Shown here in pieces: positions 15,515 through 19,532 of a stretch of 43,269 nt of DNA; the stretch's first letter is position 1; each line of letters opens with the position of its first letter. The stretch comes from Alphaproteobacteria bacterium (lineage in GTDB: Bacteria > Pseudomonadota > Alphaproteobacteria > Pelagibacterales > Pelagibacteraceae). The position numbers were made by a program, and so were the translations under genes. A model generated the notes under the pieces. It made no database searches. It saw only the letters and a program-made list of their open reading frames with translations, and was not told the DNA's origin. The DNA lies in contig VGCG01000005.1 in NCBI GenBank assembly GCA_016870175.1, forward strand, positions 1 through 43,269, given 5' to 3'.

Positions 15515-15973
15515 ATGGAATCTCTAAAAAAATGGATGGCAGACTGTGCTAATATTTTATTTGATGATAGTAAAAATGATTTAAGATCACTACCAAAGTC
15601 CGTTAGACTCCAAATATTGCTCGTTTTAAGTTTCATTTGGACCACTGTGTTCAGTCTTTATATTTTTTCATATACAACTTTTGCATTAGGTTGGGCGGGT
15701 ATTTATCTTGCACATATCGGATTAATTTTTGCTGTCTATATGACTTTTAAACAATTTCATAGAGCTGAGGCGAGATCAAGTAATGTCTTTAAAACAAAAA
15801 ACTATGATCCTTTTAAAATAATTGCTATAGTATTTGTTATTGTATTTATGTTTGTTTTTTCAAAAGGAATAGAAGTTTTAAATTCAAGTAATTCATATGA
15901 TATACAATATGATGGGTCTAGCAAGACGCCTGAAGAAAAGTGGTTACCATTCTCTAAAAAGAATAAAAATTAA
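15515..15973 (+). CDS. Uncharacterised inner-membrane protein
   Basis: 152 residues with three predicted TM segments: about 33-53 (IWTTVFSLYIFSYTTF), 55-76 (WAGIYLAHIGLIFAVYMTF) and 101-119 (IIAIVFVIVFMFVFSKG). The N-terminal 30 residues are polar with one Cys, and the C-terminus is Lys-rich. No family is recognised. Its stop codon shares one base with the start of the PsiE-like gene (TAATG), so the two are translationally coupled and may form a membrane pair. It lies 129 bases after ybbP, a gap with no clear signal beyond a weak imperfect hairpin. Confidence 0.75.
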   Translation: MESLKKWMADCANILFDDSKNDLRSLPKSVRLQILLVLSFIWTTVFSLYIFSYTTFALGWAGIYLAHIGLIFAVYMTFKQFHRAEARSSNVFKTKNYDPFKIIAIVFVIVFMFVFSKGIEVLNSSNSYDIQYDGSSKTPEEKWLPFSKKNKN

Positions 15974-16356
15974 TGAAAGATCTAATTAAAAATTTACAAC
16001 TTGGCTTACTTATTGTTATTTTATTAAGTACCGTTTTAGCAGTATTTCTTGAAATCCAAAAAATGTACATACTACAATCTATAACTTTAGCAGATTTATT
16101 ATTAATGTTTTTATACCTAGAAGTAATGGCAATGGTTAGAGTATTTTGGGAGGAACAAGCCATCAGCATAACTTTGCCTCTTTTAATTGCTATAACTGCT
16201 TTATCTCGATTTATAATATTACAAGGAAAAGAAATGGATCCATCATCGCTTGTCTATGAGTCTATTGCAATTTTGTTAATAGCAATTGCAATCGTAGTTA
16301 TGAGATTAAGACATAATAAATTTTTTGATCGTCAATCTAAAAAGATTGATAAATAA
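15973..16356 (+). CDS. PsiE-like (phosphate-starvation-inducible) membrane protein
   Basis: 127 residues with four hydrophobic segments near 9-26, 33-55, 64-84 and 95-112. The YLEVMAMVRVFWEEQAI segment near 48-64 and the RFIILQGKEMD stretch near 84-94 resemble the PsiE family, whose biochemical role is unknown. Its start overlaps the previous gene's stop by one base. No PHO-box-like sequence was noticed upstream of the pair, so phosphate control is not supported here. The 157 bases to the regulator gene (convergent) hold no recognisable signal. Confidence 0.7.
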   Translation: MKDLIKNLQLGLLIVILLSTVLAVFLEIQKMYILQSITLADLLLMFLYLEVMAMVRVFWEEQAISITLPLLIAITALSRFIILQGKEMDPSSLVYESIAILLIAIAIVVMRLRHNKFFDRQSKKIDK

Positions 16357-16513: not shown

Positions 16514-17941
16514 TTAATCATTAACAACATAGACCGAAACACCCCTGGAGTTAATATCAACATCAAATTTTTTATGAAGTGGTGGAAAAGCACGCTGAGA
16601 ACAATCTAATCGATCACAAGTCCTACAAGAAACACCTATGGGAATTTCAGATGATTTATCATTAATATTAAGGTTTTCAGTATAAATTAAATCTTTTGCA
16701 TACTTTGCATCACAACCTAAGCCGATTGATAACAAACTCTTAGTTTTACCAAATTTTCCGATACCTTTTTCGACTGTTCGAGCAATGCATACATATTTTT
16801 CACCGTTGGTCATTTTACTAACTGCCGCTTGAATGATACCTGGTCTACTAAACGCAGAATAAACATTCCATCTGGGACACGCTCCTCCATATCGTGGAAT
16901 TTCAATTCCAGATAAAGAAAATCTCTTAGAAATATTTCCAGCAACATCTACTCTTAATAGATGAAAAGGAATCCCAGGTAACTTTGGATCTTGTAATGAA
17001 GTAACTCTGTGTGCCACTTGTTCAAATGAGGTTGCGAAAGTGATTTGTAATAATTCCAAATCATATTTAAGTTTTTTACACTCTGTATGAAATAATTTAT
17101 AGGGCATTAAAATAGCTGCCCCACAATAATTTAGCAGGGCGACTTTGGATAAATTCCTCGACTCCTCAGATGGGAACATGAAACCTGATAAATAATTTTC
17201 AATATCTTCCATTGCTCCCTCTTGTGCTATTTGAGCAGCTGCATAAAGTTTTTTAGTTTCTGTTGAACTATAATCACTTAACAAAAGTTCTTTTTTATTT
17301 TTATTATATATTTTTGAAAATGGTTTATTTTCATCTGGAATAACATCAACGACTTTTATAGAATATTCTGACTTTAAATACTCACACAATTCAATATATC
17401 TAGTACGATTATTTTTTTGAATTTTTTCAAAAACTTTATTTGCAAAATTCTCTAATTTAGGAAAATAATTTTTATTTTCCTGTAAAAAATCGGAGATTAC
17501 TTCCCCAGGAAAAGAATTTTTCCTATTATCAACTATCTTACCAGAAATTTTTTCAATTTTATTAACAAGTTCATGATCTTTCTTTTTTAATATATCGCCC
17601 AATTTAACTATAGCTTTGCCTATTTTTGGATTTGTGCTTACTAAGTCTTTAACTTCTGGGCCAAGAATATCTAAATCTTCAAATAATTGATCATCTAAAA
17701 TTTCATAAACACTATTTTCTAAATTAATGTCAGATTTTGATGATAAATCAGAAAGTTCTATATTAAGTTTTTCACAAACTTTTAACAATAAATCCCCATC
17801 AATTTTTCTCTTGCCACTTTCAATTAGGTTTAAATAGCTTGGAGATATATTCAAATCCTCCGCGAGTTTGTTCGCCTGAAGGCCTAATTGTCTCCTAAAA
17901 GACTTAATTTTTGGCCCAATTTTTAAATCAATTTGACTCAT
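16514..17941 (-). CDS. XRE-family regulator of short-chain acyl-CoA metabolism (RamB/ScfR/PccR type)
   Basis: 475 residues. An N-terminal HTH (about 8-62, with the recognition region ISPSYLNLIESGKRKI) is followed by a linker, an ImmA/IrrE-like domain (about 170-300) and the ScfR-type C-terminal domain (about 310-470), ending in the Cys cluster SCRTCDRLDCSQRAFPPLH. The IrrE-like part lacks an HEXXH motif (the equivalent helix reads YAAAQIAQEGA), so it is probably ligand-sensing, not a protease. Known family members (RamB, PccR, MccR) control glyoxylate-shunt or propionyl-CoA genes in response to acyl-CoA. Here the gene is divergent from aceA with an array of GTAAATT sites between, the likely operator for autoregulation and aceA control. 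Confidence 0.9.
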   Translation of the reverse strand: MSQIDLKIGPKIKSFRRQLGLQANKLAEDLNISPSYLNLIESGKRKIDGDLLLKVCEKLNIELSDLSSKSDINLENSVYEILDDQLFEDLDILGPEVKDLVSTNPKIGKAIVKLGDILKKKDHELVNKIEKISGKIVDNRKNSFPGEVISDFLQENKNYFPKLENFANKVFEKIQKNNRTRYIELCEYLKSEYSIKVVDVIPDENKPFSKIYNKNKKELLLSDYSSTETKKLYAAAQIAQEGAMEDIENYLSGFMFPSEESRNLSKVALLNYCGAAILMPYKLFHTECKKLKYDLELLQITFATSFEQVAHRVTSLQDPKLPGIPFHLLRVDVAGNISKRFSLSGIEIPRYGGACPRWNVYSAFSRPGIIQAAVSKMTNGEKYVCIARTVEKGIGKFGKTKSLLSIGLGCDAKYAKDLIYTENLNINDKSSEIPIGVSCRTCDRLDCSQRAFPPLHKKFDVDINSRGVSVYVVND

Positions 17942-17952
17942 ATTTTCTAGTT

Positions 17953-17999
17953 GTAAATTTTGTAAATTATAATTTACAAAATATTTCCTTAATTTACAA
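17953..17999. promoter_or_regulatory. Operator cluster 1: GTAAATT repeats and long palindrome at the regulator promoter
   Basis: GTAAATT occurs at 17953 and 17962 (9-base step), and its reverse complement AATTTAC at 17971 and 17991. The central pair sits in a perfect 26-base inverted repeat (17957-17982) with half-sites TTTGTAAA and TTTACAAA 6 bases apart. These are close to the TTTGCAAA half-site known for RamB/PccR proteins. A TATAAT for the regulator lies inside the palindrome (17971-17966, minus strand). The cluster begins 12 bases upstream of the regulator's start codon, so binding there should block it. Confidence 0.7.
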
Positions 18000-18025
18000 G
18001 CTTTTTAAACAATTAAGTAGATTAT

Positions 18026-18048
18026 GTAAATTTAGTAAATTATATAAT
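18026..18048 (+). promoter_or_regulatory. Operator cluster 2 and -10 candidate toward aceA
   Basis: Two more GTAAATT units start at 18026 and 18035, the same 9-base step as in cluster 1. They abut a TATAAT at 18043-18048, and no good -35 hexamer exists at the expected distance. The repeats therefore occupy the -35/spacer region of the likely aceA-side promoter. A start point near 18055 would fall on or beside the ATG of the 52-codon ORF, giving aceA a leader of about 200 bases. Confidence 0.6.
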
Positions 18049-18053
18049 TAATT

Positions 18054-18212
18054 ATGGAAAATAACACTAAAAAACAAAATAACAATAATCTAACAACTAA
18101 CGAGGAACATACCCAACACAGTCGTAAGGGTATTTACTTTAGAGACGATCATTGTGACTGGGGTTCTAGTGGTATTAACGATCTTGCAGAAGACAATAAC
18201 AATAGCAAGTAA
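18054..18212 (+). CDS. 52-residue hypothetical protein between the regulator and aceA
   Basis: An ATG at 18054 opens 52 codons ending in TAA at 18210-18212, 45 bases before aceA. The product is hydrophilic: an Asn/Gln/Lys-rich N-terminus, a centre with GIYFRDDHCDWGSSGIND (about 26-43) and an acidic Asn-rich tail. There is no signal peptide or TM segment. The central His-Cys-Trp stretch has a much more protein-like composition than chance AT-rich ORFs. I do not recognise a family. The predicted start point of transcription coincides with its ATG, so translation may be leaderless. The alternative is an untranslated aceA leader. Confidence 0.5.
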   Translation: MENNTKKQNNNNLTTNEEHTQHSRKGIYFRDDHCDWGSSGINDLAEDNNNSK

Positions 18213-18257
18213 TTAGTATACTTTAGAACTTTCCTTAATCTTAAATAAGAACCATAA

Positions 18258-19532
18258 ATGAGTGCCGAAAATATTTCTTACGATTTAAAAAGATATGCTG
18301 GAATAAAAAGAGATTATACGCCGTCAGATGTTGAAAGATTAAGGGGCTCGATAAAAATTGAATACACGATTTGTGATATTCAGTCGAAAAAACTTTGGAA
18401 ATTATTAAACTCAGAACCTTATATTAATACAATGGGTTCACTATCTGGTAATCAAGCTGTTCAACATGCAAAGGCCGGACTAAAAGCAATTTATTTAAGT
18501 GGATGGCAAGTAGCTGCTGATGCTAATTCAGCTGGTGAAATGTACCCCGATCAATCTTTATATCCTTATGATAGCGCTCCCAAGTTAGTCGAGTCAATGA
18601 ACAATTCTTTAATTAGAGCTGATCAAATTCAGCATATGGAAATTCATGATGGTGATATGAAAAAAGAAAACAAAACCGATTACATGTTACCTATTATTGC
18701 TGATGGCGAAGCTGGTTTTGGTGGACCTTTAAACGTCTTTGAACTTACTAAAAAATTTATAAAAACTGGGGCAGCTGGAGTTCATTTTGAAGATCAATTA
18801 GCTAGTGAAAAAAAATGTGGTCATATGGGAGGAAAAGTTTTAGTACCAACAAGCACTATGATCAGAAACTTAAAAGCAGCAAGATTAGCTGCTGACATTG
18901 CTAATGTTGAATTAATTATTTTAGCTAGAACAGACGCCAATGCCGCAAAACTAATTACCAACGATCATGATGATAATGACAAACCTTTTTTAACTGGTAA
19001 GAGATCTCCTGAGGGATTCTTTTACGTAAGAGAAGGAATTGAACAAGCAATTTCTAGAGGAATAGCTTACGCTCCTTATGCAGATTTAATTTGGTGCGAA
19101 ACAGCAACTCCCAATCTTTCTGAAGCTAAAAAATTTGCTGATGCTATTCATGAAAAGTTTCCAGGAAAATTGCTAGCATATAACTGTTCACCTTCTTTCA
19201 ATTGGAAAAAATATTTGTCTGACTCGGAAATAGCTTCTTTCCAACAAAAAATCGGTGCGATGGGATATAAATTTCAATTTATTACTCTCGCAGGATTTCA
19301 TGCTCAGAATATCGCTATTTTTGAATTAGCAGAAAAATACAAAAAAGAAGGTATGACCGCTTATTCAAGAATTCAACAATTAGAATTTGCAAGAGAAAAA
19401 GATGGTTATACCAGTATTAAACATCAAAGAGAGGTTGGGACTTCTTATTTTGATGCTGTATCTAACACTATCAGCAGTGGAAAAAGCTCAACTGGAGCAA
19501 TGTCGGGTTCAACTGAGTCGGAACAATTTTAA
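18258..19532 (+). CDS. aceA: Isocitrate lyase
   Basis: Splits isocitrate into glyoxylate and succinate, the first step of the glyoxylate shunt, in the cytoplasm. In 424 residues it shows YLSGWQVAADAN near 79-90, Mg-binding DGEAGFGGP near 149-157, FEDQ near 177, the catalytic motif KKCGHMGGK with Cys187, and NCSPSFNWKK near 315. The length matches the short bacterial form (E. coli 434). No malate synthase is in the window. There is no convincing Shine-Dalgarno before the ATG. The upstream GTAAATT array and divergent RamB-like regulator imply induction by acetate, acyl-CoA or a related metabolite. Confidence 0.97.
   Translation: MSAENISYDLKRYAGIKRDYTPSDVERLRGSIKIEYTICDIQSKKLWKLLNSEPYINTMGSLSGNQAVQHAKAGLKAIYLSGWQVAADANSAGEMYPDQSLYPYDSAPKLVESMNNSLIRADQIQHMEIHDGDMKKENKTDYMLPIIADGEAGFGGPLNVFELTKKFIKTGAAGVHFEDQLASEKKCGHMGGKVLVPTSTMIRNLKAARLAADIANVELIILARTDANAAKLITNDHDDNDKPFLTGKRSPEGFFYVREGIEQAISRGIAYAPYADLIWCETATPNLSEAKKFADAIHEKFPGKLLAYNCSPSFNWKKYLSDSEIASFQQKIGAMGYKFQFITLAGFHAQNIAIFELAEKYKKEGMTAYSRIQQLEFAREKDGYTSIKHQREVGTSYFDAVSNTISSGKSSTGAMSGSTESEQF

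Follow-up and report, generated by a model that had tools for sequence, protein, structure and literature searches.

A conserved array of paired half-sites between a RamB-like regulator gene and aceA in SAR11 bacteria, a probable operator of the regulator

Results

A half-site array in the gap between the regulator gene and aceA

In SAR11 bacteria, the gap between a gene for a regulator of the ScfR/RamB type and the divergent isocitrate lyase gene aceA contains an array of short half-sites. From sequence comparison, this array is predicted, with good confidence, to be the operator of the adjoining regulator. It was analyzed in a stretch of 43,269 nt of a Pelagibacteraceae genome (contig VGCG01000005.1), which is called the window throughout. 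Six copies of GTAAATT or AATTTAC are found within 89 bp (17953–18041) of the window sequence. GTAAATT on the plus strand starts at 17953, 17962, 18026, and 18035, and AATTTAC, the form of the minus-strand copies, starts at 17971 and 17991. The features of the region are:

16514–17941, minus strand: ScfR/RamB-type regulator, 475 amino acids, with HTH_3, IrrE-like, and ScfRs C-terminal domains
17953–17959, plus strand: R1, GTAAATT, opens the regulator-side pair P1; GTAAA is invariant among relatives
17957–17982, no strand assigned: perfect palindrome of 26 bp, ATTTTGTAAATTATAATTTACAAAAT, around R2 and R3
17962–17968, plus strand: R2, 9 bp past R1, from the repeat search and the alignment of relatives
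17971–17977, minus strand: R3, AATTTAC, inverted, at +20 relative to R1 (87 of the 88 regions)
17991–17997, minus strand: R4, inverted, at +40 relative to R1 (86 of the 88 regions), retained by other SAR11 genera
17993–18000: conserved core of R4, TTTACAAG
18026–18032, plus strand: R5, opens the aceA-side pair P2, 73–74 bp from R1
18035–18041, plus strand: R6, 9 bp past R5, followed by an invariant TATA at 18041–18044
18048–18053, minus strand: R7, degenerate remnant of a seventh half-site, TTTACA in 73 of 88 relatives
18054–18212, plus strand: microprotein gene, 52 amino acids, core RDDHCDWGSSG, the gene that directly follows the array
18258–19532, plus strand: aceA, isocitrate lyase, 424 amino acids (NCBIfam NF011645, E 1.6e-215, above the cut-off)

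The step is 9 bp inside both direct pairs, P1 (R1 and R2) and P2 (R5 and R6). In the direction of aceA the order is R1> R2> <R3 ... <R4 ... R5> R6> <R7, and both clusters consist of a direct pair and an inverted third site. R7 directly abuts the start codon of the microprotein gene in most Pelagibacter, and it has been lost in the window genome. A previous sequence-only reading had described six sites in two clusters with a 9-base step and the palindrome of 26 bases, and all of them were recovered at the positions it had given. The array also lies inside the interval it had delimited (17942–18257), but this interval is not wholly intergenic, as it includes the 52-amino-acid gene. The microprotein gene, the seventh site, the fixed spacing of the two clusters, and the specificity for a single locus had been overlooked.

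The possibility was considered that the repeats arose by chance in a genome with 70% A+T. Shuffling of the stretch yielded six copies of some 7-mer in 1.4% of the cases (p about 0.014). The palindrome is the longest of the window, the runner-up having 18 bp, and dinucleotide shuffling of the stretch gave a palindrome of 26 bp about 5 times in 100,000 (p about 5e-5). The perfect palindrome is unique to the window genome, and the relatives keep only its two half-sites. Taken alone, the window sequence thus lends moderate support to the repeats and strong support to the palindrome; the comparative support described below is decisive.

Conservation of the array across SAR11

Each locus was oriented, and the stretch between the regulator gene and aceA was compared, which yielded 88 distinct Pelagibacter regions. 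The distance between P1 and P2 is 73 bp in 77 of these and 74 bp in 10, and the sole exception for P1 among the 88 regions is a mutated R1. R7 is inverted and located at +95/96 in 73 of 88 regions. In contrast to the nearly fixed spacing of the array, the listed Pelagibacter loci have anywhere from 33 to 82 bp between the microprotein gene and aceA. Clustering at 85% identity reduces the 88 regions to 13, and the invariance is partly due to shared ancestry. In the 13 representatives with less than 85% identity, the GTAAA/TTTAC columns are invariant or nearly so, and many spacer columns vary. The closest public loci are from Pelagibacteraceae and have regulators that are 87–96% identical to that of the window.

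More distant genera have related arrangements. In the genera g2, g3, and g4 (7 loci, regulators 59–61% identical) a second arrangement is present, the same in all seven loci, with a pair of opposite orientation at -50 and another pair at +43 from R4, both with 9-bp steps. In genus g9 (regulator 68% identical) the pairs are 92 bp apart, and there is no clear R4. Between the two arrangements, the distance from P2 to R4 changes from 33 to 43, i.e., by exactly 10 bp or about one helical turn; for P1, the size of the shift varies with the way its flipped orientation is counted. The 73 bp between P1 and P2 are close to 7 x 10.5 bp, or about seven helical turns.

The sequence-only reading had proposed the conservation of the repeats among relatives as a check, and this was borne out in the 88 Pelagibacter regions and in other genera. 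A chance origin of the repeats, the probability of which we regard as negligible, is ruled out by alignment columns and distances that stay unchanged in dozens of genomes and in other genera.

The adjoining regulator

The regulator has the three-domain architecture of the ScfR family, and the Pfam matches to ScfRs (E 2.2e-58), HTH_3 (2.1e-12), and Peptidase_M78 (2.2e-8) were each above the gathering score. The best NCBIfam match was RamB (E 5e-107), yet the score was below the curated cut-off: it reached 358 bits against the equivalog NF038139, for which 700 bits are required. Therefore, the protein is named RamB-like and not a member of the equivalog. The closest solved relative is PrpR from M. 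tuberculosis (PDB match, E 5e-64). The four Fe-S cysteines that are typical of the family are conserved in comparison to PrpR, as C-X2-C-X4-C and a fourth cysteine in the GAF-like domain; the segments GGACPRW and CRTCDRLDC align with PrpR. The assignment to the RamB/ScfR type in the sequence-only reading is thus upheld by the ScfRs domain, the RamB-like NCBIfam match, and the similarity to PrpR. As is typical of class 2 RamB, the gene is divergent from a glyoxylate-shunt gene, namely aceA, in all listed SAR11 loci. Paired, nearly identical half-sites near the divergent starts, as in ScfR-type operators, are also present. Convergent with the regulator gene, a protein of 152 amino acids without a family (15515–16356, plus strand) is encoded beside a PsiE-family protein.

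The motif and known operators of ScfR proteins

PrpR from M. tuberculosis binds the site TTTGCAAA, and its footprint comprises two octamers one nucleotide apart, i.e., with a 9-bp step (PMC3420887). The half-site of the array, TTTGTAAA, had been reported to differ by one base from the family site TTTGCAAA, and this agrees with the PrpR site (PMC3420887). In other alphaproteobacterial families, TTTGTAAA was found upstream of 16 of 26 ScfR genes, with 0.2 expected, and TTTGCAAA upstream of 4 of 26. Because of this difference, TTTGTAAA is the usual form in Alphaproteobacteria and not a product of A+T-richness; an origin by AT drift or as a peculiarity of SAR11 is ruled out by the 16 upstream regions. 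The genes that carry TTTGTAAA include ScfR genes that are located away from aceA. In the loci L154–L180, the 200 bp upstream of most of the sampled alphaproteobacterial ScfR genes contain TTTGTAAA octamers, and these frequently form pairs whose step is 8, 9, or 17 bp. A step of 9 bp as a universal rule for the other Alphaproteobacteria was rejected, as 8, 9, and 17 bp were equally common among sites with at most one mismatch.

For the operator of RamB from Paracoccus denitrificans, a class 2 ScfR, wild-type and mutated oligonucleotides have been published, and both boxes are needed for activation (PMC10370305). The SAR11 word TTGTAAATTTTGTAA was compared with the wild-type oligonucleotide. The best match was 11/15 at position 17 (p 0.007), followed by 9/15 at position 49; these are exactly the two boxes that had been mutated, and a further 9/15 match overlaps the first box. 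As in SAR11, the ScfR gene of Paracoccus is divergent from glyoxylate-shunt genes (PMC10370305), and there are two boxes, the best-scoring stretches for the SAR11 motif, each with two TGTNA-like half-sites at a 9-bp step. The two systems differ in that the Paracoccus boxes are 32 bp apart and malate synthase is first in the operon, whereas in SAR11 the pairs are 73 bp apart, extra half-sites are present, the microprotein gene comes first, and the sites are near both start codons. Spacing by whole helical turns in both cases, about seven in SAR11 and about three for the 32 bp in Paracoccus, is suggestive only.

The M. tuberculosis PrpR system shares the 9-bp step, the protein family, and the Fe-S cysteines (PMC3420887, PMC6765138), but its site is TTTGCAAA instead of TTTGTAAA, methylcitrate genes are the main target, and there is one pair instead of two clusters. 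RamB from Corynebacterium glutamicum (class 1) is likewise a regulator of acetate metabolism, and its site AA/GAACTTTGCAAA shares TTTGnAAA with the SAR11 motif (PMC4448153). It differs in having many targets with single sites of 13 bp (PMC4448153), whereas the SAR11 pairs were found at one locus only. A search of open-licence papers found no relevant literature on TTTGTAAA or a SAR11 RamB. ScfR operators were already known; the SAR11 arrangement, its fixed spacing, and its use at a single locus were not found in this literature.

Restriction to a single locus

Nine genomes, eight of which are at least 99% complete, were searched for the paired pattern TTGTAAATNTTGTAAAT with at most one mismatch. 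All matches outside of the ramB-aceA region were within open reading frames, and their number was about that of a control with the reversed pattern. A genome scan for further paired sites, which had been suggested together with the operator, thus revealed none outside of genes beyond the array itself. Outside of genes, strong paired sites, i.e., pairs with at most one mismatch as opposed to weaker or single sites, are confined to the ramB-aceA locus in these nine genomes.

Among 397 genomes of the order, 216 had the regulator and aceA, 7 only a match to the regulator, 4 only aceA, and 170 neither; about 43% of the sampled genomes were thus without both. The regulator gene and aceA appear to come and go together as a cassette. 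In two of the four genomes with aceA only (G092 and G239), aceA is at the start of a contig, where the regulator gene would be cut off, and the microprotein gene is present. In G283, which belongs to another genus, no regulator, microprotein, or paired sites were found, and aceA is located elsewhere (L202, C4:139000–143416); the genome is 86% complete, and the absence of the regulator is therefore uncertain. Its aceA sits downstream of an open reading frame with a PCHRV motif, which we take to be that of methylated-DNA cysteine methyltransferases. This locus may serve as a natural control, or its aceA may have been moved or replaced.

These results bear on the possibility that the sites belong to another DNA-binding protein, global or nucleoid-associated, and that the ScfR gene is located beside them by coincidence. 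AT-rich sites can indeed suit several proteins. However, the paired motif is confined to the ramB-aceA locus in the nine genomes searched and is absent upstream of the aceA of G283, for which no regulator was found, and it matches the mapped RamB boxes as well as the words upstream of the ScfR genes of the class. Another protein as the cognate binder is therefore very improbable.

The microprotein gene and the search for promoters and RNA elements

The microprotein is recognizable in the Pelagibacter loci and is more diverged in g2, g4, and g9. The core DxxDWGxxG is invariant among the homologues, and the dN/dS of the core is about 0.10, by which the microprotein is under purifying selection at the amino acid level. 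It had no Pfam or NCBIfam family match, and searches of nine aceA-less SAR11 genomes and of 140 further genomes sampled from the class did not detect it. The structure model had a pLDDT of 58 and no fold. Joint control of the microprotein gene with aceA is the simplest reading. In the genera g2 and g3, a different small open reading frame (IESNCV..., containing cysteine) is present just upstream of aceA (L119:3203–3370 and L122:1031–1198, and also in L118 and L121).

A scan for sigma-70-like promoters found none in the array that reached the threshold, and the number in the region was that expected by chance. The proposal of the sequence-only reading that one cluster covers the -10 of the regulator gene and the other the -35 and spacer on the aceA side was thus not substantiated. 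By hand, two options could be drawn that are indistinguishable, namely TTTACA at R4 with a TATAGA-like -10, and TAGATT with TATAAA after R6.

The conservation of P2 and R7 might reflect control at the RNA level, via the leader or the translation start of the microprotein gene or aceA, more than protein binding. R7 abuts the ATG in most Pelagibacter, and a small open reading frame precedes aceA in the manner of a leader peptide. On the other side, an Rfam search yielded no match in the window, the regulator side carries the same half-site word with the same 9-bp step, and the microprotein is selected at the level of its amino acids. RNA-level control is thus improbable as the main cause of this conservation.

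Expression under iron limitation

In Ca. Pelagibacter ubique under iron limitation, microarray data showed an increase of aceA (SAR11_1240) by 1.58-fold (P 0.09) and of the adjoining regulator (SAR11_1242) by 1.60-fold (P 0.05) (PMC2864753). The joint rise is statistically weak and as expected for an Fe-S repressor that acts on both genes. The gap in the numbering suggests that SAR11_1241 is the microprotein. From its gene order, genome G011 (L195, 4199–9682; sfuA-sfuB-sfuC-small gene-aceA-regulator) is probably Ca. P. ubique HTCC1062. In G011, the sfu iron transporter genes follow aceA in the same orientation and the regulator gene is divergent; transcription running on from sfu therefore does not account for the increase in either aceA or the regulator. 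Local effects on aceA are possible, as the neighbouring sfu genes were strongly induced. The window genome has genes for an ABC-2 exporter where G011 has the sfu genes.

Discussion

The proposed operator and the sign of control

The sites, their geometry and conservation, the specificity for one locus, the protein family, the cysteine ligands, and the match to a mapped RamB operator were observed directly. Binding by the adjoining regulator, bridging by a tetramer, and the nature of the ligand are what we infer from them, and this holds most of all for the sign of control. The array would control two divergent units, ramB and microprotein-aceA. The HTH domains of the regulator would recognize half-sites of the TTTGTAAA type as pairs with a 9-bp step. 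PrpR from M. tuberculosis forms a tetramer that contains a [4Fe-4S] cluster and CoA (PMC6765138). A tetramer of the SAR11 regulator may occupy P1 and P2 together, with R3, R4, and R7 as accessory sites; with about seven helical turns between them, the pairs face the same side of the helix, which would make joint occupancy possible. P1 is located just upstream of the start codon of ramB and P2 just upstream of that of the microprotein gene. Because the pairs adjoin the start codons, the bound state is taken to hold down both units, and this closeness suggests occlusion, which would result in autorepression and repression of the glyoxylate shunt. Binding of acyl-CoA and/or loss of the [4Fe-4S] cluster would change the oligomer and release both units.

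With regard to the sign of control, we lean slightly towards a repressor, and an activating or dual role has a substantial likelihood of its own. By analogy, the regulator might use the same operator chiefly to activate microprotein-aceA, with P1 as the activation site and P2 or R4 for tuning. In Paracoccus, expression of the target depends on the divergently transcribed RamB and on both boxes (PMC10370305); moreover, P1 and R3 are upstream of any plausible promoter on the aceA side, and R4 holds the -35-like TTTACA. However, a repressor fits better with the position of P2 beside the start codon of the microprotein gene and with R7, which in most relatives directly abuts this codon. The joint rise of regulator and aceA upon iron limitation (PMC2864753) and the finding that activation by PrpR is abolished by loss of the Fe-S cluster (PMC6765138) also speak against this alternative, so that a chiefly activating regulator is plausible, but not our first choice.

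Repression could also be part of a more far-reaching scheme, in which a single-target Fe-S repressor reads iron and acyl-CoA and bridges the two clusters, and the SAR11-specific microprotein adjusts isocitrate lyase or the regulator post-transcriptionally. We consider this scheme unlikely in its entirety.

SAR11 bacteria, which number among the most abundant cells of the ocean, possess few regulators, and the array would represent a dedicated switch for the glyoxylate shunt at a single locus. If this is true, the switch would tie the fate of carbon to the iron status of the ocean via the Fe-S cysteines and the link of the family to acyl-CoA. The half-site word can serve as a motif for RamB-like regulators throughout Alphaproteobacteria, and the microprotein represents an unnamed, conserved gene family within the aceA unit.
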